From a virus, in the IMG/VR virus record IMGVR_UViG_3300021961_010701, positions 1 to 46,182 of that record: a DNA stretch of 46,182 nucleotides; one strand, given 5' to 3'. Shown one piece after another: positions 8,104-39,625 of the stretch (within the stretch, counting starts at the first letter, position 1; the number at the start of each line of letters is the position of its first letter). The position numbers and the translations under genes were made by a program. The notes under the pieces are model-generated. The model saw only the letters and a program-made list of their open reading frames with translations, was not told the DNA's origin and did no database searches.

Positions 8104-8385
8104 TTACTCGACTTTCATAAAATAAGTTCGCAAAATCCATTTGGCACGATTGAGACACTGGCGCTGATCTTCCAGGATGTTAGCCAATGTGTCGCTGTCA
8201 TAAGGACCGTAACTGACCATTTCTTGGCAGTCCGACATCAGGCTCATTGCCATCATTGCGGGACCCGAAAAGCGGAATGTAATGCTTTGCTCTACCGCTT
8301 CGCGCATCTGCGCTTCGGTGCAGCCATACATGCCCACCTCACGCTTTTCTGTTGGGGATAGTGCTTCGTAAATTGCTGTTGCCAT
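8104..8385 (-). CDS. Small phage protein of unknown function
   Basis: A 93-residue, probably helical protein with many Met and Glu residues. The start is ATG 8385 (M-A-T-A-I-Y-E), preceded six bases upstream by AAGGAG; the longer frame from 8391 would need a TTG codon. It is the first gene behind one of the repeated sigma70-type promoters, suggesting early expression. Confidence 0.65.
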   Translation of the reverse strand: MATAIYEALSPTEKREVGMYGCTEAQMREAVEQSITFRFSGPAMMAMSLMSDCQEMVSYGPYDSDTLANILEDQRQCLNRAKWILRTYFMKVE

Positions 8386-8414
8386 TTTCAACTCCTTTTT
8401 ACTTACTATGCATT

Positions 8415-8443
8415 ATTATAGCAAAATGGGAATTATTGGTCAA
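8415..8443 (-). promoter_or_regulatory. Sigma70-type promoter, copied family member 1
   Basis: Minus strand TTGACC (8438-8443), 17-base spacer, TATAAT (8415-8420). The spacer AATAATTCCCATTTTGC is identical to the spacer of the promoter at 19150 and one base different from that at 19746. It lies immediately downstream of a terminator and upstream of the 93-residue gene. Confidence 0.8.
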
Positions 8444-8448
8444 CAAAA

Positions 8449-8471
8449 AAGAATGTGGCAAAAATGCCACA
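8449..8471 (-). terminator. Rho-independent terminator of the lysine-oxidation operon
   Basis: On the minus strand the perfect stem TGTGGCA/TGCCACA with an AT-only loop is followed by a T-rich run (ATTCTTTTTTG). It sits 24 bases past the stop of the 184-residue gene and just before the promoter of the next unit. Confidence 0.8.
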
Positions 8472-18961: not shown

Positions 18962-19117
18962 TTAGATATTGCAGGCTTTAAAAAAGCGATCAACATCAAA
19001 ATTACTATTAGTTTCTTGGCATGCAGATGCCACAGCACAAGCCGCCTGCAACCTAGCATGAGGATCCATGATAGCATTGATGTATTTGACTAATGCTACA
19101 AAGTGTTTACGGGGCAT
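18962..19117 (-). CDS. 51-residue small protein behind a copied promoter
   Basis: A small ORF starting MPRKHFVALVKYIN and rich in Ala and Cys in the middle. The leader with GGAG and the promoter upstream are nearly identical to those of the gene at 19441-19713, which strongly supports translation here. Function unknown; early expression is likely. Confidence 0.65.
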   Translation of the reverse strand: MPRKHFVALVKYINAIMDPHARLQAACAVASACQETNSNFDVDRFFKACNI

Positions 19118-19179
19118 TTTGAACTCCTGTTCTGTTACGCTATGTCAATATTATAGCAAAATGGGAATTATTAGTCAAC
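19115..19179 (-). repeat. Promoter-leader cassette, copy A
   Basis: These 65 bases cover start codon, Shine-Dalgarno, leader and promoter. They match 19711-19775 at all but two positions (19162/19758 and 19173/19769). Confidence 0.9.
19150..19178 (-). promoter_or_regulatory. Sigma70-type promoter, copied family member 2
   Basis: Minus strand TTGACT (19173-19178), 17-base spacer, TATAAT (19150-19155). It drives the 51-residue gene and the small genes downstream. Confidence 0.8.
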
Positions 19180-19190
19180 CTTTTGGTATT

Positions 19191-19439
19191 TTACAACGGC
19201 AAGCGAACAATGACTGCATCACGAAAATGTTGATGTAACTCAATAGGGCGATCTGTCCGTTTGACGGTACAGGTATAGCCCGCCTTTTCTACGAATTTCT
19301 TAATGTCCTCAATCATGCTAAAATCTGTGCGATCCTTTGCATAGCATTTGACGGTATGACATTTGGCATAGCGGTTGGTGAAAATCGTCTTGCGACCATG
19401 CAGTTGCATAACCTTACGAACAACAAGTGTATCACGCAT
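19191..19439 (-). CDS. Small basic phage protein of unknown function
   Basis: An 82-residue protein starting MRDTLVVRKVMQLHG, chosen because ATG 19439 follows the upstream stop by one base with GGAG just before it. It is rich in Lys, Arg and Cys (K-C-H-T-V-K-C). No domain recognised; a nucleic-acid role would be a guess. Confidence 0.6.
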   Translation of the reverse strand: MRDTLVVRKVMQLHGRKTIFTNRYAKCHTVKCYAKDRTDFSMIEDIKKFVEKAGYTCTVKRTDRPIELHQHFRDAVIVRLPL

Positions 19440-19440
19440 T

Positions 19441-19713
19441 TTAGGCGCTCCAGTATGTTTCAGAACTGGGCGAGCAGTAGTAGGGCGTGTCATAACGCTC
19501 CCGAAACTCCCGTCCGCCCATTAGGTTTTTACGAGTGACATAAGTCTCAAACACTTCAACAATAAACCCCAGTTTTCGCTTGCCTTCGGCAACCGCCTGA
19601 ATGTAATCTTTGGTGCTGGGGGCAAAATCTTCTTTTGCGTACAGACGGCGACCTTCTTTGGTACGCTTGTCAGCACGATACAGCTCTAAGGTATATTCGA
19701 CTAATTGGGACAT
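19441..19713 (-). CDS. Small phage protein of unknown function
   Basis: A 90-residue charged, helical protein, first behind the second copy of the promoter-leader cassette. No known motif. Confidence 0.6.
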   Translation of the reverse strand: MSQLVEYTLELYRADKRTKEGRRLYAKEDFAPSTKDYIQAVAEGKRKLGFIVEVFETYVTRKNLMGGREFRERYDTPYYCSPSSETYWSA

Positions 19714-19775
19714 TTTGAACTCCTGTTCTGTTACGCTATGTCAATATTATAGCAAAACGGGAATTATTGGTCAAC
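19711..19775 (-). repeat. Promoter-leader cassette, copy B
   Basis: Near-identical partner of 19115-19179 (63 of 65 bases). Confidence 0.9.
19746..19774 (-). promoter_or_regulatory. Sigma70-type promoter, copied family member 3
   Basis: Minus strand TTGACC (19769-19774), 17-base spacer, TATAAT (19746-19751). Confidence 0.8.
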
Positions 19776-19804
19776 TGTGTTGTTTTTACGCAACACTCAA
19801 AATA

Positions 19805-20038: not shown

Positions 20039-20629
20039 TTATCGTTTTTCCACAATAGTATCAATTAGCCCATAATCAAGTGCTTCCTGTGCGGACATAA
20101 ATGTGTCCCGATCCATATCGCGTTCAAAATCTGCATAGGTTTTGCCCCGACTGTTATGCTTAACATACAGTTCGGTCAACTGCTTTTTCATGTGCATGAT
20201 TTCTTTGTAGCTGATTTCAATGTCACTGGCCATACCGCGGGCGCTGCCACTGGGTTGGTGAATCATATGCCGTGCGTGGGGCAACATAAGTCGTTTGCCC
20301 GGTGCTCCTGCTTGCGCCAGAAAACTGCCCATACTGCATGCTTGCCCAATCACAATGGTGCTAACATCGCATTTGATAAAATTCATAGTATCATAAATGC
20401 TCATGCCCGCTGTAATCACGCCTCCGGGACTGTTGACGTAAAATAGGATATCAGCGTCAGGATTTTCGCTTTCCAAAAACAGCATCTGTGCCACAATCAA
20501 GCTGGCGCTGTGATCACTTACTTCGGTGTCAAGCATAACAATACGGTCTTTTAGCAAACGGCTGTAGATGTCATAACTCCGCTCGCCCTTAGACGTTTGC
20601 TCAATAACCATTGGGATCAAATGTGGCAT
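20039..20629 (-). CDS. clpP: ClpP protease subunit 1
   Basis: A full-length ClpP of 196 residues. The nucleophile S99 is in G-Q-A-C-S-M-G-S, H124 in H-M-I-H-Q-P-S-G, and D171 in E-R-D, giving an intact catalytic triad. The handle helix and the Y-V-N-S-P-G-G oxyanion strand are present. It should form a tetradecameric peptidase that works with ClpX; the phage also encodes ClpX (43561-44766). It has its own promoter (20670-20698) and AGGA before ATG. It may pair with the divergent ClpP at 22330. Confidence 0.92.
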
Positions 20630-25910: not shown

Positions 25911-26339
25911 ATGTCAATTTTTTCTCGTATCAAAGATTTTTTCAAAATACCAAATAATACAAAAATTATGGACGATGATCTTAGTGATATCGCACCTTAC
26001 AAAGTTGAACCGCCTGCGTCTGATCACGGGCAAACTAGCACAGCATATTGGCCGTTCCCCACTCAGCAGCCCACAGAAACAATAGGTATGTCCAAGCCTA
26101 AGGCAAAGTCAAAGCCAGCAAAAGCTCGCCCAGCCAAGCCTAAAGCAGCACCTCCTGTTCCGCCTGCTAAACAGAAAAAACCCAAGGCCGCAGCAATTAC
26201 AGCCAGCCCAAAATCTAAGCAAAAAGCAAAACTATTTGTGGATGGGCACGGGGATGTGCAAGAAGCGACAACTAAAAAACAGCCGGTTAAAAAGAAACGG
26301 CAGTTTGACAAAAAGCCCAAAGCACCAAAGACTAATTAG
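25911..26339 (+). CDS. Lys/Pro/Ala-rich histone H1-like protein
   Basis: A 142-residue protein. Residues 1-60 are mixed (S-I-F-S-R-I-K-D-F-F, an acidic patch D-D-D-L-S-D). Residues about 60-142 are P-A-K and K-K-x-K repeats as in H1-type histones and phage DNA-condensing or internal head proteins. It is driven by a perfect late box, which fits a virion-packaged DNA-binding protein. Its end overlaps the converging UvdE gene by 8 bases. Alternative: a flexible basic scaffold. Confidence 0.65.
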   Translation: MSIFSRIKDFFKIPNNTKIMDDDLSDIAPYKVEPPASDHGQTSTAYWPFPTQQPTETIGMSKPKAKSKPAKARPAKPKAAPPVPPAKQKKPKAAAITASPKSKQKAKLFVDGHGDVQEATTKKQPVKKKRQFDKKPKAPKTN

Positions 26340-27339
26340 TCCAGGATTTATGCAGGGCAAAGCTGGCTAGATTTTTGTGCTTTGACTCACACATGATATC
26401 GTGTGTATCAGTAAAGCTCAATGCCCACTCATTCATAGGCTTATTCCAGTATCGATCACTGTGAGCCCGTAGTTTTTGTTTTTTGTGTCCCGCTGCCAGC
26501 AGTGATTCCATTAATGGAAGCTGGTCGGTTGGGTGATTGACAAGTACATCTTCCCTAGAAGCGGAATAGTGCAGTACAGGACGTACACCACGCCAACTAT
26601 CAATAACACGTTTAACGCGATCGTCATTGGGCGAGATGTATTCCCCTTCGCGAATAAAATGATGATGAATGTCAAGCACAACAGGTATGCTGTCAGATAT
26701 AGAAAGGCAGTCGTCAAGCCCATAAGAATATTCCTCGTTTTCTATCGTGATGGTATTGCGGGCTTCGGGCGATAACTTCGAGTAAGCGTCCAAGAACCCT
26801 TTGGGACCGGCGCGGCCCGAGATGTGGACGTTGATTTTAAAGTCTTGGAAAGATCGGCCAAAGCCCATCCAACGGGCCATTGTTGCATGATATTCAAACT
26901 CCTCTATGCTATTTTGTACAACATCAGGGTTATCAGAAGCCAATACACAAAACTGGCCAGGATGAAAACTGAGACGTACTTTATTACGTCGGGCAATTTC
27001 TCCTGCGCGGTATAACCCTTTTTCTGCCAATGCTCGAATATCAGTTTCATTGTAAAACCAAGACCAATCGCGGTGAGTATACATAGGAAGTATATCACTA
27101 CCAATCCGAACCATTCTGAGTTGATCATCAAGCTCGCCTACTTTTTCTACCAATAACTGAACCGAACGAACATTGTGTTCTACAATATCACGCAAACGTT
27201 CAACAGCAACGTCACGGTGTTGGCGGTTAAGCCACGCCACTGTTGTCGTTCGGGTATTTAGTTCGGGCACCGCAACGACACCTTTTGGCGTTTCTTCGGA
27301 CCATTTGCAAGCAAAACCAATGCGTGTATGTGTAGTCAT
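26332..27339 (-). CDS. uvdE: UV damage endonuclease
   Basis: A 335-residue UvdE/UVDE TIM-barrel nuclease. The N-terminal R-I-G-F-A-C-K, the R-L-S-F-H-P-G-Q-F-C metal strand, E-N-E-E and D-I-H-H-H-F motifs and a late H-Y-S strand are the metal-binding residues of the family. It nicks DNA 5' of UV photoproducts and starts excision repair, a fitting trait for a phage in sunlit water. The start codon lies five bases after the -10 box, implying a leaderless mRNA. It overlaps the end of the plus-strand H1-like gene. Confidence 0.9.
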   Translation of the reverse strand: MTTHTRIGFACKWSEETPKGVVAVPELNTRTTTVAWLNRQHRDVAVERLRDIVEHNVRSVQLLVEKVGELDDQLRMVRIGSDILPMYTHRDWSWFYNETDIRALAEKGLYRAGEIARRNKVRLSFHPGQFCVLASDNPDVVQNSIEEFEYHATMARWMGFGRSFQDFKINVHISGRAGPKGFLDAYSKLSPEARNTITIENEEYSYGLDDCLSISDSIPVVLDIHHHFIREGEYISPNDDRVKRVIDSWRGVRPVLHYSASREDVLVNHPTDQLPLMESLLAAGHKKQKLRAHSDRYWNKPMNEWALSFTDTHDIMCESKHKNLASFALHKSWTN

Positions 27340-27344
27340 GCTGC

Positions 27345-27373
27345 ATTATACATGACTTTGTATTTTATGTCAA
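27345..27373 (-). promoter_or_regulatory. Consensus sigma70 promoter of uvdE
   Basis: Minus strand TTGACA (27368-27373), 17-base spacer, TATAAT (27345-27350). The -35 overlaps the stop of the upstream gene; the ATG starts where transcription would begin. Confidence 0.8.
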
Positions 27374-29895: not shown

Positions 29896-30404
29896 ATGTG
29901 TCCAGTAATTTGAAGCGTGTATCTAGGAGTTAAACCCAAGTTAGCTGCCATGTGCGGTGCATCATAAGCCCATTCTATTGTGGATCCTGCTGACCAATTT
30001 ACATACGGCTCTCCACAGTATTCAGCATAGTGTCCGGGCTCCCAATCATTTAAAAATATTACAGCACGGCGTATACTGGATTCTTGTCCTTGTAAGCCGT
30101 GTACCTGTATATATTTCAAGTAAAGATCGCCGTGCGTGGGCAACACCGTTCCAGTGTTCATACGATAATAACTGGTGCCGATATCCCGCCATCCTTGTGC
30201 CACAAAAATATCAACGAAGCGTTGGTTCCAAGAAGGCTGACTGCTCCGCATGTCGCACATGTCTCCAGTAAACTTATTGGGATAACCTTGTGCCGTCCAC
30301 TTGGCAGATAACGCCACATCATTGAACGGTTCATTGATATAGTTTAACGTTTTGTACTCGTCGTCCCAGAATTTGTACAACTGATATTTTTTTATGTTAT
30401 GCAT
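29892..30404 (-). CDS. 2OG-Fe(II) oxygenase-like protein
   Basis: A 170-residue protein with T-H-G-D near residue 91 (HxD), R-R-A-V-I-F-L-N-D-W, then W-S-A-G-S and P-H-M-A-A-N with a distal H, and P-R-Y-T-L-Q-I-T-G at the end. The HxD...H order fits a small Fe(II)/2-oxoglutarate oxygenase. It is coupled to the UDP-sugar dehydrogenase (TAATG) and amidinotransferase genes (ATGA), suggesting one biosynthetic unit. Substrate unknown. Confidence 0.55.
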   Translation of the reverse strand: MHNIKKYQLYKFWDDEYKTLNYINEPFNDVALSAKWTAQGYPNKFTGDMCDMRSSQPSWNQRFVDIFVAQGWRDIGTSYYRMNTGTVLPTHGDLYLKYIQVHGLQGQESSIRRAVIFLNDWEPGHYAEYCGEPYVNWSAGSTIEWAYDAPHMAANLGLTPRYTLQITGHI

Positions 30405-31648
30405 TATTTTTGACGAGTATTTCCGTAGTGTACAACTTTAATACCATCTAGTGTGGTAGGCAATGTGCGCCAAGGGTCAACAATAACACTTCCAGGGTGT
30501 ATTGTGCAATAAGGCTCGGTATTTTTTTGATCGCCGGTATATTCATATGTAATACGACGATTGTGTGCCCACAAATAAACTGCGGCGCCTTCGACTGAAG
30601 CAATAACATCTGTAGGATCATCGGCTAGTGGATCTACATACCTTACATCAATGCCGCGCTCTTTGATATAGTGTCCTACCAGCGTTGAGTAACTGCCAAT
30701 ACAGTAAGGCACATCGGGTTTGTAGGCTTTGCCGTGAATTACAATTGGCAGATCCAATTCCAGTTGGCTTTGCGTGATCAAAAACTCTGCTAGATTTTTT
30801 GCTTGTATTTCACGAGCACTCATAATAGTGTCAAACAAGTCATAGCCAATGTCATATTCTTCAGCCAGCCATCGTAAGGCAATGTTGTCACGGGGATGGC
30901 AAGCACCTGCATCTCCCATGCCCGCTGTCATGTACTTGGGACCCATGATGCGCATGGTACTACGCGCCAGTGCGTTAGTAACAACATCTACATTAATGTT
31001 GCCAATACGCATAGCAAAGTCTTGAATCATGTTGGCCAGTCCAACTTTGGCGCTGATAAATGTGTTATAAAAAATCTTAATCGCTTCGCACTCGTCCCAT
31101 GTGCCAATTTCATAGCGCGGATCATTTTGCATGATTTGCTTGTAAATATCTACAAGCTCACTAGCAACACCATTCCAATTGCCATCTTCGGTACCAATCA
31201 TAACCATTTCAGGATTGGCCATATCCCATTTAACTGAGCCCATAGCAATTAAGTAAGGGTTATATAAAAACTGGTGTTGTTTATCAAGTAAGTTGATAAA
31301 ATGCCTGCGAGTGGTGCCGGGTAATACTGTGCTGATTAGGACTACCTTTTTGGGAGATTTAGCGTATTGATTGATTTTGGCAATAGCATCTTTTACAGCA
31401 CCGTGCCCAAAATCTTTTGGAGTCATATGGCTGCTAGGCGTTGATCCATCGTAACCCGCTTCGTGGGGTGTGGGCACTGCTATAAAAATCCACTCACTTT
31501 CATTTACTATTTCTTCGATGCCGCAAACTTTTATCAGCTCACTTGTTCTTGGGTAAATATCATAACCCCGGACTGTGAACTTTTCTGCCATAACTTCAGC
31601 GCAGTCCAGCCCTAATTTTCCAATGCCAATAAAGCCGATATTTTTCAT
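30404..31648 (-). CDS. UDP-sugar dehydrogenase, full length
   Basis: A 414-residue UDP-glucose/GDP-mannose dehydrogenase. The NAD loop GIGKLG is at residues 8-13, F-I-A-V-P-T-P at about 55-61, and the catalytic C250 in D-A-G-A-C-H-P-R-D-N. The last 100 residues form the UDP-binding domain. The motif reads CHPRDN where classical enzymes have CFPKDT, so it may be a divergent subgroup. Product is a UDP-uronate. It begins 3 bases from the divergent glycosyltransferase-like gene. Confidence 0.82.
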   Translation of the reverse strand: MKNIGFIGIGKLGLDCAEVMAEKFTVRGYDIYPRTSELIKVCGIEEIVNESEWIFIAVPTPHEAGYDGSTPSSHMTPKDFGHGAVKDAIAKINQYAKSPKKVVLISTVLPGTTRRHFINLLDKQHQFLYNPYLIAMGSVKWDMANPEMVMIGTEDGNWNGVASELVDIYKQIMQNDPRYEIGTWDECEAIKIFYNTFISAKVGLANMIQDFAMRIGNINVDVVTNALARSTMRIMGPKYMTAGMGDAGACHPRDNIALRWLAEEYDIGYDLFDTIMSAREIQAKNLAEFLITQSQLELDLPIVIHGKAYKPDVPYCIGSYSTLVGHYIKERGIDVRYVDPLADDPTDVIASVEGAAVYLWAHNRRITYEYTGDQKNTEPYCTIHPGSVIVDPWRTLPTTLDGIKVVHYGNTRQK

Positions 31649-33435: not shown

Positions 33436-35261
33436 ATGGCTACAATCGCCACAGTAAAAGAAATAAGCGGCAAAGTTCTTGCCCAAGCACAAGACGGAAG
33501 CATTCGTGAATTAAAAGTTGGTGATGCAATAGCTGACACCGACAAAATCATAACGGGACAGGGCAGCATTGTTCTTGCTGATGCAAGCGGTGAGACACTT
33601 GCATTAGAGCCCGGACAAACAGTAGCAATAGACAACTCTGTATTCAACACAGAACTGCTACCCACAGCAAAAGAAGCAGCAGTTGCCAACTCTGCTGATA
33701 TTAATTCAGTTATACAATCATTAGACGGTAGTGGTGATTTATTAGAAAACTTAGATGCAACTGCTGCTGGTTTGGGCGCAGGAGGCGGCGAAGGTAGTGG
33801 TAGTAGTTTTGTACAACTATTACGCATTGCAGAGGGAGTCAATCCACTGTCCTTTAACTATAACTTCACTCCTCCAGGAAGACCAGAAGTGCTAGTTGGT
33901 GACGCATTACCGACAGAACAAGAACCATCAACAGTAACAGAGCCGCCCGCAGAACCCCCAGCAGAACCAGTTGTCGCTATCACATACGAATACTATACAG
34001 AAGTTACAACAAGCACAGTACCAGGCGACACAACTTACGGATCTTGGACAGAAGTTGGACGCAACACAACTACAGATACATCAACTACTGCTGATGAAGA
34101 TAATAAGCAAAATGTAGTTACTACAACTACCACAACCACTGTTGACTTGTCACGTGACGTAACAACGTCAGAAATTACAACTACTACAACTACTACATAC
34201 AAAGTAGAAGTTACAACAACAACCAATCCAGACGGAACTGTTACAGTATCCAGGGCTGACCCAGTTGTTGATAATGTTGAGACTAGCACAGAAACAACAA
34301 CAACTACAACGCAACAAACCAATCAAGAAGTATCAACTGATACCAACGTTGATTATGATCCATGGCCAGCGGAACCAGTTGTTACTGTAACATACGAGTA
34401 CTACACAGAAACCACAACTGAAAGAACACCGCTGGAAACAGTATATGGTGAGTGGGCAGAAACTGGTCGTAATACAACTACAGAAACCACAACAACCGCT
34501 GATGAAGAAAATGAACGTGATATTATCACCACAACTACAACTACAACTGTTGATTACTCCAGAGATGTTACCACTGGTGAACTTGTAGTAACAACTACAA
34601 CAACATATCAAGTTACTGTAACTACAACAACCTATCCAGACGGAACATCAAGTGTTGTTAGAAGCGATCCTGTTGTTGATGGTGTTGATAGCAGTGAGCA
34701 ACCCAATACTAACACAACCGTAGAAACTGATCAGGAAGTGTTAACTGATACTGACATCGATTACACGCCCTGGCCTGTAGAGGAAACTGGTGAAAATTGG
34801 TTTATGTCTCAAGGCGGAAACAACAGCGATCAAGCATACACATTGGAAGAGGAAGAGCCAATATCGTTTAATGTACAGTTCCAAGATCGTTCCGGAGAGC
34901 AGTTGGGTAAAATTGCTGATGGTGAATCAGTAACACTAAACATCAAAGTAACCGGCGATCAAGAAGCACTTGCGCTGCTTGATATACTTATGTTAAGGCT
35001 GCAAAAGGCTTTAGTGCAACTTGGGAACTAAATGATGATGAACTTGAAATATTGTTAACCAATACTTCGGGCAAAGATCAGAACTTGCAGGGCAATCCTG
35101 TCGATGTTGAGTTTAAAGTTGGTGATGACGGGTTAGTTGGCACAAACACCAGTATTGGATTTGACATTGATACTGCTACGCTAGGTGGTGTTTGGGAAAC
35201 TAATGACCAAGTTAACTACTTGATCAATGATATAATTAAAAAGGGTGGTGCTCCGGACTAA
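33436..35261 (+). pseudogene. LapA-like adhesin with LapG site, frameshifted
   Basis: A secreted-adhesin-like protein. Residues 1-115 form a LapA/RTX-adhesin retention module (A-T-V-K-E-I-S-G-K-V, G-D-A-I-A-D-T-D-K-I) with the LapG diAla cleavage site T109-A-A-G. Two Thr-rich repeats of about 137 residues follow (aa 177-313 and 314-450), each with T-Y-E-Y-Y-T-E and D-P-V-V-D. Frame 1 ends at TAA 35029-35031 as 531 residues; the protein clearly continues in the -1 frame to 35261. The break fits a 2-base AT insertion near 34980-34990. AAGGAG precedes ATG. A sequencing error or A-AAG slippage are alternatives. The intact form would be about 608 residues. Confidence 0.75.
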
Positions 35262-37177: not shown

Positions 37178-37862
37178 AAGTACTGTAGCATTTACAGACT
37201 TGTTATTCAACATTCTTGTTGGATTCGTATTTTTATTCTTAATTGCGTTCTTAATGATCAACCCCGTTGCTAAAAAGGGTGACATTATTACTCCTGCTGA
37301 ATTTATTATTGCACTAACGTGGCCTGAAGATTCGGCTGACGATATCGACATTTGGGTTCGTGGTCCCGATATGAACGTTGTGGGATTCACAAGAAAAGAC
37401 TCACCACTAATACACTTAGATCGAGACGATCGTGGTGTTCTTGAAGACAAAATGGAGATTGACGGTAAGGAAGTGATTATAAAAGTCAATAGAGAAGTAG
37501 TAACCGTCCGCGGCAAGATGCCTGGTGAATATTATATTTCTGTACACTGGTATAGAAAACCAGTGTTTAAGGATCACGAAAAAGATTTTAAAATGTACGA
37601 CAGTTTGCCAGTTACTGTTGAGGTACAGAAGATTAATCCTTACTCAATAATTTACAAGCAAACAAAGAATTTTACTGACGAAGGTGAGGCACGCAATTAC
37701 TATAAATTTACAGTAAATGCCGACGGGAACGTTTCTAATGTTACTGAAACAGATGAGGACATTGTTCCAGTATTAACAAAGAAATACTCAGGACGGTTGG
37801 TGCGTCCTTATGCTGCTCCAGAGCCAACTAATTCATCTTTGCCTGCCCCAGAAGGAATATAA
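37155..37862 (+). CDS. ExbD-like protein with DUF2135-like periplasmic domain
   Basis: A 235-residue protein. The span at about 16-36 is preceded by D15 (A-F-T-D-L-L-F-N-I-L), the protonatable Asp position of ExbD/TolR/MotB. Residues about 48-155 resemble a YfaP/DUF2135-type beta domain (A-L-T-W-P-E-D-S-A-D-D-I-D-I-W-V-R-G-P-D). The rest is a flexible tail. It pairs with the channel gene and precedes a two-span protein. A pmf-driven envelope motor of unusual architecture is the inference. Confidence 0.68.
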   Translation: MDSPQKFKSTVAFTDLLFNILVGFVFLFLIAFLMINPVAKKGDIITPAEFIIALTWPEDSADDIDIWVRGPDMNVVGFTRKDSPLIHLDRDDRGVLEDKMEIDGKEVIIKVNREVVTVRGKMPGEYYISVHWYRKPVFKDHEKDFKMYDSLPVTVEVQKINPYSIIYKQTKNFTDEGEARNYYKFTVNADGNVSNVTETDEDIVPVLTKKYSGRLVRPYAAPEPTNSSLPAPEGI

Positions 37863-37866
37863 AAAT

Positions 37867-38307
37867 ATGTTAGCACTTGCAATTTTTAGTTTAATGCTGT
37901 TGACCATAATTGTGTTAGTTGTTATGATCAAAGAAAAATGGAACCCAATACTAATGTCCATCCTGGTTCCGTTCTTGTTATTCAATGTTGCGTTTAGTTG
38001 GCATACGGTAAATGACTTGTGGGGACAACCCAAAGATGGTTTGCCCGAAGACGACTCTTTTCGAGTTGTGTATGCTAAAAATGCCAAGCCCTGGATTTAT
38101 CTACTAACTATAGAACCCGATGTTGATTATCCAGTGTTCCGTCGTATTCCCTGGACCAAGCAGTCGCAAGAACAACTGGAAAAAGGTACCAAGGCGCAAA
38201 AAGAAGGCAAGCGCATGGTAGCTAAAAAGAGCAAAACACCAACCGACGCAGATACGCAAATCGAGTTGTATGAATGGGATGCACAAACGGCAATGCCAAA
38301 GGATTAG
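37867..38307 (+). CDS. Two-span membrane protein
   Basis: A 146-residue protein from ATG 37867, 4 bases after the ExbD-like stop. Two hydrophobic spans (about 1-20 and 25-46) precede a charged periplasmic or cytoplasmic tail rich in Lys. Its last codons lie in the first copy of the 26-bp repeat. It probably belongs to the channel unit. Confidence 0.6.
   Translation: MLALAIFSLMLLTIIVLVVMIKEKWNPILMSILVPFLLFNVAFSWHTVNDLWGQPKDGLPEDDSFRVVYAKNAKPWIYLLTIEPDVDYPVFRRIPWTKQSQEQLEKGTKAQKEGKRMVAKKSKTPTDADTQIELYEWDAQTAMPKD
38281..38306 (+). repeat. 26-bp direct repeat, left copy
   Basis: Identical to 39134-39159. It encodes the last residues of the two-span protein (A-Q-T-A-M-P-K-D). Confidence 0.9.
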
Positions 38308-39078: not shown

Positions 39079-39133
39079 AACACTATTTACTATAGAATTA
39101 GAACAAAATAAATATTATTAATGTGTTTATTTT

Positions 39134-39159
39134 GCACAAACGGCAATGCCAAAGGATTA
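39134..39159 (+). repeat. 26-bp direct repeat, right copy
   Basis: Identical to 38281-38306 and ending 1 base before the endolysin ATG. Confidence 0.9.
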
Positions 39160-39160
39160 A

Positions 39161-39625
39161 ATGAAATTATCAGAAAACTTTACATTAGATGAAATGACAA
39201 AAAGTGATGTTGCACTACGCAATCACTTGGACAATACACCCGGAGACACAGAAATTAAAAACATGGTGGCACTGGCCGAAAATGTTTTACAACCAGTTCG
39301 CGATCACTACGGCCGTGGTGTGCATGTTAACAGCGGCTACAGATCACCAGCGGTTAATAGTGCAGCTCGAGGTTCTGCCAGCAGCGAGCATGTTAAGGGA
39401 ATGGCTGCTGATATCGAAATTCCTGGCATTAGCAATGCTGACTTGGCTCATTGGATTGCTGATAATTTAGATTTTACACAATTGATATTAGAGTTTTATA
39501 CTCCAGGCGTACCAAGCTCAGGATGGGTACATGTGTCATATAATCCAGCAAATCTTAAAAAAGAAATGCTAACAGCGGTGTCAAAAGACAAGAAAACTGT
39601 CTACCTGCCCGGATTACAAGCATAG
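39161..39625 (+). CDS. Peptidase M15 endolysin
   Basis: A 154-residue M15-type peptidase (D,D-carboxypeptidase/L-alanyl-D-glutamate peptidase group). The zinc ligands are H77 and D84 in S-S-E-H-V-K-G-M-A-A-D, and H124 in G-W-V-H-V-S. It would cleave peptide stems of peptidoglycan at lysis. No signal peptide, so holin-dependent release is expected. The right repeat copy directly abuts its start; the ancestral gene order was two-span protein then endolysin. Confidence 0.88.
   Translation: MKLSENFTLDEMTKSDVALRNHLDNTPGDTEIKNMVALAENVLQPVRDHYGRGVHVNSGYRSPAVNSAARGSASSEHVKGMAADIEIPGISNADLAHWIADNLDFTQLILEFYTPGVPSSGWVHVSYNPANLKKEMLTAVSKDKKTVYLPGLQA

Follow-up and report, generated by a model that had tools for sequence, protein, structure and literature searches.

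The two 65-base stretches at 19115–19179 and 19711–19775 of the window (the whole 46-kb IMG/VR record that was analysed) belong to a genome-wide class of promoters that is repeated before many different small genes. We consider it likely that these promoters belong to freshwater T4-superfamily jumbo phages and are of host-σ70 type, very probably early, that they are used as exchangeable promoter–leader cassettes, and that their spacer is held by selection.

Direct alignment of the two stretches confirmed the observation, made in the sequence-only reading, that they share 63 of 65 bases. Both are on the minus strand, and the similarity extends from one base before the −35 box (G followed by TTGACY) to directly after the ATG of two different ORFs of 51 and 90 aa, unrelated to each other. 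The reading was also correct that the shared bases include start codon, leader and promoter and that the genes behind them differ. The boxes, TTGACC or TTGACT and TATAAT, are separated by 17 nt, with an extended −10 (TGC). The promoter of the first stretch, TTGACT-AATAATTCCCATTTTGC-TATAAT (19150–19178; 43.9 bits on the class matrix described below), is followed by a leader with AGGAG (19115–19149) and by the ATG of ORF 18962–19117, 32 nt after the −10 box; the product (51 aa, family 48) has 22 relatives in IMG/VR and no match in PHROGs or Pfam. That of the second, TTGACC-AATAATTCCCGTTTTGC-TATAAT (19746–19774; 46.1 bits), precedes an identical leader with AGGAG (19711–19745) and the ATG of ORF 19441–19713, whose 90-aa product has no match in cultured phages and belongs to family 0, the largest downstream family (26 non-redundant sites). 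The third site, TTGACC-AATAATTCCCATTTTGC-TATAAT (8415–8443, minus strand; 47.8 bits), is the class consensus itself. Its leader, again with AGGAG (8386–8414), ends at an ATG at 8385, 29 nt after the −10 box, from which a 93-aa ORF of family 6 is read (8104–8385, minus strand); the ORF list starts this frame at a TTG two codons earlier. Pfam and PHROGs searches of the small window proteins returned nothing. The three sites had been described as having the same 17-nt spacer, which is exact for only two of them (8415–8443 and 19150–19178), because the spacer at 19746–19774 differs from both at one base. Within three mismatches, the spacer occurs three times in the window, compared to 0.41 expected, and three occurrences were reached in none of 100 shuffles.

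Further copies, for which the sequence-only reading had proposed a genome scan, are abundant. An exact scan with a 29-mer of 27 fixed bases found 49 IMG/VR stretches, and a looser pattern found at least 120, while a moderately degenerate 29-mer had no match in 84,980 bacterial and archaeal genomes. A position matrix for the class was applied to ten records, the window and nine other motif-bearing ones (1.17 Mb; one of these, G007, lacks its last 246 bases). At ≥18 bits, the matrix found 102 sites in the ten records and none in reversed sequence. The count changed little, from 118 to 96, as the cutoff was raised from 10 to 22 bits, which marks the class as discrete, and the reversed sequence gave no site at any threshold from 10 bits. 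In every one of the ten records, all class sites are on one strand. The class consensus is GG-TTGACC-AA-[T/A]-AAT-[T/G]-CCC-[A/G]-[A/T]-TT-TGC-TATAAT-A, also written GG-TTGACC-AAWAATKCCCAWTTTGC-TATAAT-A, with AATAATTCCCATTT as the spacer apart from TGn. Downstream of the −10 box, there is a CAT at about 6 nt, the predicted start, followed by a short leader that is A-rich and contains AGGAG. The ATG is mostly 25–32 nt past the −10 box, and 269 of the 275 leadered copies have a Shine–Dalgarno-like sequence. The class copies are predicted to be active as strong host-σ70-type promoters, very probably early ones. Ordinary promoters with other spacers are also present in these phages.

The constraint on the spacer was measured as the information in the first 14 spacer positions of all TTGAC-N18-TATAAT promoters, regardless of their spacer. 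The ten records gave 11.7 bits for promoters with TGn (n = 92) and 2.6 bits for those without it (n = 43); as the records had been selected by the presence of the motif, the value of 11.7 bits applies to phages with the class. An independent sample anchored on clpP had a class site in 10 of 80 loci, with 29 sites on the clpP strand, none on the opposite strand and none in reversed sequence, and the TGn spacers around clpP as a whole had just 3.5 bits. The early promoters of T4 are likewise of σ70 type, consisting of −35, TGn and −10 elements with extra consensus beyond the boxes, and are found mostly on one strand, also before novel ORFs (PMC2988021, PMC1524935). The class has the same TGn and TATAAT, 17-nt spacing, consensus beyond the boxes, predominant use of one strand and location before novel ORFs, but its −35 box is TTGACC instead of the GTTTAC of T4. 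By the same measure, the spacers of 37 minus-strand GTTTAC-type T4 promoters hold 2.9 bits (0.9 in the middle nine positions), against 11.7 bits for the class. T4 (NC_000866) has some early-type promoter pairs with identical or near-identical spacers (123064–123093 with 136307–136336, and 2429–2458 with 50944–50973). The T4-type late promoter TATAAATA was considered as a temporal counterpart and showed no excess over reversed sequence.

The identifiable large carriers of the class are T4-superfamily jumbo phages. One of them, G011 (300 kb), codes for a T4-type portal as well as a DNA polymerase, a baseplate wedge protein and an SbcC-like protein. The portal shares 52% identity with its counterpart in Sinorhizobium phage Phosso and 48–49% with those of Atu_ph07 and PA5oct; in 14 further motif-bearing records, the portal is 73–87% identical to that of G011. 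In the window fragment, no portal, polymerase or baseplate gene was identified; its kinship with these phages is suggested by a ClpP-like protease gene (20039–20629, minus strand; 67% identity to Agrobacterium phage Atu_ph07) and by shared early-gene families. The class is absent among the TTGAC-N15-TGNTATAAT promoters of the cultured relatives PA5oct and Atu_ph07, which lack the conserved spacer. A match in Aeromonas phage AS-zj scored −1.6 bits on the class matrix, and DNA searches of cultured phages gave only weak matches (E values around 1 or higher). The window also contains a UDP-glucose dehydrogenase-like gene (phrog_9148; 30404–31648, minus strand), degenerate ACTACAACTAC repeats at 34068–34640 within ORF 33436–35031, and an exact 27-base direct repeat, TGCACAAACGGCAATGCCAAAGGATTA, at 38280–38306 and 39133–39159, 853 bases apart. 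The first copy of this direct repeat is at the end of ORF 37810–38307, and the second is just upstream of ORF 39161–39625.

The genes behind the promoters are highly diverse. A total of 346 non-redundant class sites have 339 readable downstream ORFs in at least 94 families, with 44 singletons, and two sites before the same or a homologous family never occur within one record. In the loci, 470 of 659 copies of these genes have the cassette, which is always present in some families and rarely in others. The clearest shuffling is seen between two anchor families, 2 and 1, which flank changing sets of middle genes (families 27-14-5, 24-46-19-25, 57-18-39 or 51-5), many of them, if not most, with a class promoter of their own. 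(In bacteria, the only sequences related to a portion of an anchor protein were short matches in two Xanthomonas contigs, neither with class promoters.) These data support a description of the class sites as promoter–leader cassettes before unrelated small, phage-variable genes. The sequence-only reading had called them mobile early-promoter cassettes; "mobile" is appropriate only in the sense of recombination, as there was no sign of a transposing element. The sharp ends of the copied unit in the window, at the −35 box and the ATG, may hint at recombination through the cassette, although they are suggestive only.

Before unrelated genes, the likeness between spacers was 0.642 within genomes and 0.648 between genomes. 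Recent copying is therefore not the general cause of the conservation, and selection is needed. The spacer would be kept for sequence-specific reading, most simply by the host RNA polymerase, possibly in a phage-modified form. Alternatively, in line with the extra factor that the sequence-only reading had offered as its other possibility, a dedicated phage DNA-binding factor, either a repressor or an activator, might read the spacer as a putative binding site, making the class an operator–promoter regulon. Consistent with such a factor, the constraint on the spacer far exceeds that seen in T4 early promoters and in the ordinary promoters of these phages, and it extends to a CCC for which we know of no role in σ70 recognition. 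The equal likeness within and between genomes is also what would be expected of a selected site, and the consensus in the −35 region, TTTTGG-TTGA-CCAAAA, is an imperfect palindrome. However, an operator over the −35 box is not borne out by this dyadic-looking consensus: the two halves do not covary, and at none of the ten pairs did their complementarity depart much from expectation. Free-standing copies of the spacer are few, a weak excess of 20 sites at ≥14 bits over 10 in reversed sequence, and no candidate protein was identified. In these respects, the class differs from a stoperator-like operator–promoter regulon, which would have free-standing sites or covarying dyad symmetry. We regard a dedicated factor as rather unlikely. 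A more elaborate version appears slightly less probable still: an extra factor, either virion-borne or made at once, would read the 17-nt spacer and mark the shuffling small-gene repertoire as one regulon, and the same promoter would in defined families put the start codon at +1, so that one cassette serves leaderless or Shine–Dalgarno translation.

Apart from the preferred reading, in which the host RNA polymerase reads a selected spacer, we considered that the spacer might be selectively neutral and constant merely through recent duplication of cassettes. Such copying does appear to occur locally. Among 58,192 unrelated pairs, none is more similar than the window pair, which is tied for first place, and three of the five most similar unrelated pairs, which include the window pair, are on one contig. 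Leaders are ≥90% identical in 10.1% of neighbour pairs within 1.5 kb, compared to 1.4% of unrelated pairs on different contigs (the pairs are not independent), and the spacers of such neighbours are somewhat more alike (0.70 vs. 0.64), while their upstream flanks are not shared. At one other locus (L167), the same two families as in the window pair are adjacent, with leaders that match each other but are of another type, and at a second (L255), a family-48 gene shares a leader, of another type than that in the window, with a different neighbour. The orthologues in different phages, including the window and these two loci, thus have different leader types. This sharing suggests that adjacent cassettes were duplicated or converted, separately in each phage, and recent copying is the best account of the window pair. 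As a general cause of the constant spacer, which the sequence-only reading had offered as one possibility, recent copying alone is very improbable, since spacers are as alike between genomes as within them and the flanks upstream of the −35 box are not shared (0.29 vs. 0.28), even though the copies span phages with portals differing by up to 27%. Chance resemblance of strong σ70 promoters in AT-rich phage DNA would fit the near-consensus boxes and the presence of ordinary promoters with different spacers in these phages, but it can practically be dismissed given the excess of spacers in the window, the empty reversed sequence and the absence of the 29-mer from bacterial and archaeal genomes.

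The arrangement resembles the promoter early stem-loops (PeSLs), which were reportedly described by Arbiol et al. (2010) and Comeau et al. (2014). According to two papers that cite this work (PMC4503421, PMC3950731), PeSLs of T4-type phages are composites of a terminator-like hairpin and an early-type promoter between small variable genes. The likeness includes the T4 superfamily (from the G011 portal, polymerase and baseplate protein and the portals of the 14 other records), an early-type promoter in many copies before small variable genes (346 sites, at least 94 families) and the shuffling of genes near the motif among related phages, as seen with anchors 2 and 1. Stem–loops are strongly in excess at class sites overall, though most copies lack one. 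At 86 of the 346 sites, the 50 nt before the −35 box contain a hairpin with arms of ≥7 bp; dinucleotide shuffles gave 8.7 such sites and a coding control gave 8. Many of these hairpins resemble intrinsic terminators, and most stop within about 11 nt of the −35 box. However, a clear hairpin is present in only 25–38% of copies. In the window, a terminator-like hairpin, TGTGGCA-TTTT-TGCCACA followed by TTCTTTTTT (8454–8471, minus strand; −11.1 kcal/mol, z = −3.3, with a U-rich tail), ends 10 nt before the −35 box of the site at 8415–8443. A weak hairpin, GTGTTG-loop-CAACAC (19777–19796, minus strand; −6.6 kcal/mol, z = −2.0), without a U-tract, is directly upstream of the promoter at 19746–19774, and the site at 19150–19178 has no upstream hairpin. 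A recurring hairpin, AAAAGTAGTACT-loop-AGTACTACTTTT, precedes many class promoters from different phages (L060, L066, L119, L139 and others) and is possibly a separate repeated element. The class further differs from PeSLs in that the whole 17-nt spacer is conserved, the Shine–Dalgarno leader is copied along with the promoter, the hairpin is outside the copied unit, and some copies are leaderless. We regard it as a variant form of the T4-type early-promoter and PeSL arrangement. In one genome region of the haloarchaeal virus HGTV-1, most ORFs are preceded by a TATA-box and inverted-repeat motif that has been proposed to aid shuffling (PMC3950731). This is similar to the class in having one conserved promoter motif, with an inverted repeat, before many ORFs, but it is an archaeal TATA-type promoter in a single virus.

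In 53 of the 346 sites (≈15%), the ATG is 5–6 nt after TATAAT, at the predicted transcription start, and these copies are predicted to be leaderless. The distinction is nearly all-or-none per family. Families 3 (17/17), 7 (10/10), 21 (4/4), 27, 30 and 32 are leaderless in every member (L005, L008, L009, L066 and other loci), families 0, 1, 2 and 4 have no leaderless members, and both kinds occur in families 8, 16 and 28. Family 3 proteins have N-termini of differing length and sequence, whereas the position of the ATG, at the predicted +1, does not change. Among the ordinary promoters without TGn, the first ATG is at 6 nt in 11 of 43. An endonuclease-like gene in the window (phrog_8420; 26332–27339, minus strand) has an ordinary TTGACA-17-TATAAT promoter (27345–27373) and is predicted to be leaderless because its ATG is 5 nt after the −10 box. 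The same ATG placement occurs before similar reading starts in G001 (72219), G006 (53067) and G011 (158410). Leaderless (TA-led) bacterial genes similarly lack a Shine–Dalgarno sequence and have the ATG a few nt past the −10 box (PMC3160421). The subset is like the leaderless genes of bacteria and phage lambda in these respects, but here it forms part of one jumbo-phage promoter class, beside leadered genes with the same promoter.

In the proposed mechanism, each class copy would drive one small, phage-variable gene, often from a position downstream of a terminator hairpin that would end the preceding unit. With its own promoter and often such a terminator, each combination of promoter, leader and gene would be an independent module. 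Recombination between the shared promoter–leader stretches would allow small genes to be gained, lost or exchanged, and might occasionally copy or convert the cassette of a neighbour, as in the window pair. Sequence-specific reading of the spacer would make all copies fire together, and a ready-made promoter for each gene would let genes be swapped in and out. The leaderless subset provides a natural comparison of two modes of translation behind one promoter. The class can serve as a sequence tag for listing small early-type genes without homology. At least 94 families have been collected in this way, and none of those tested matched a known function; the tagged genes are likely host-takeover genes of an abundant group of uncultured jumbo phages. 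What reads the conserved promoter spacer, and whether phage gene shuffling uses the promoter–leader cassettes as its joints, can now be tested.
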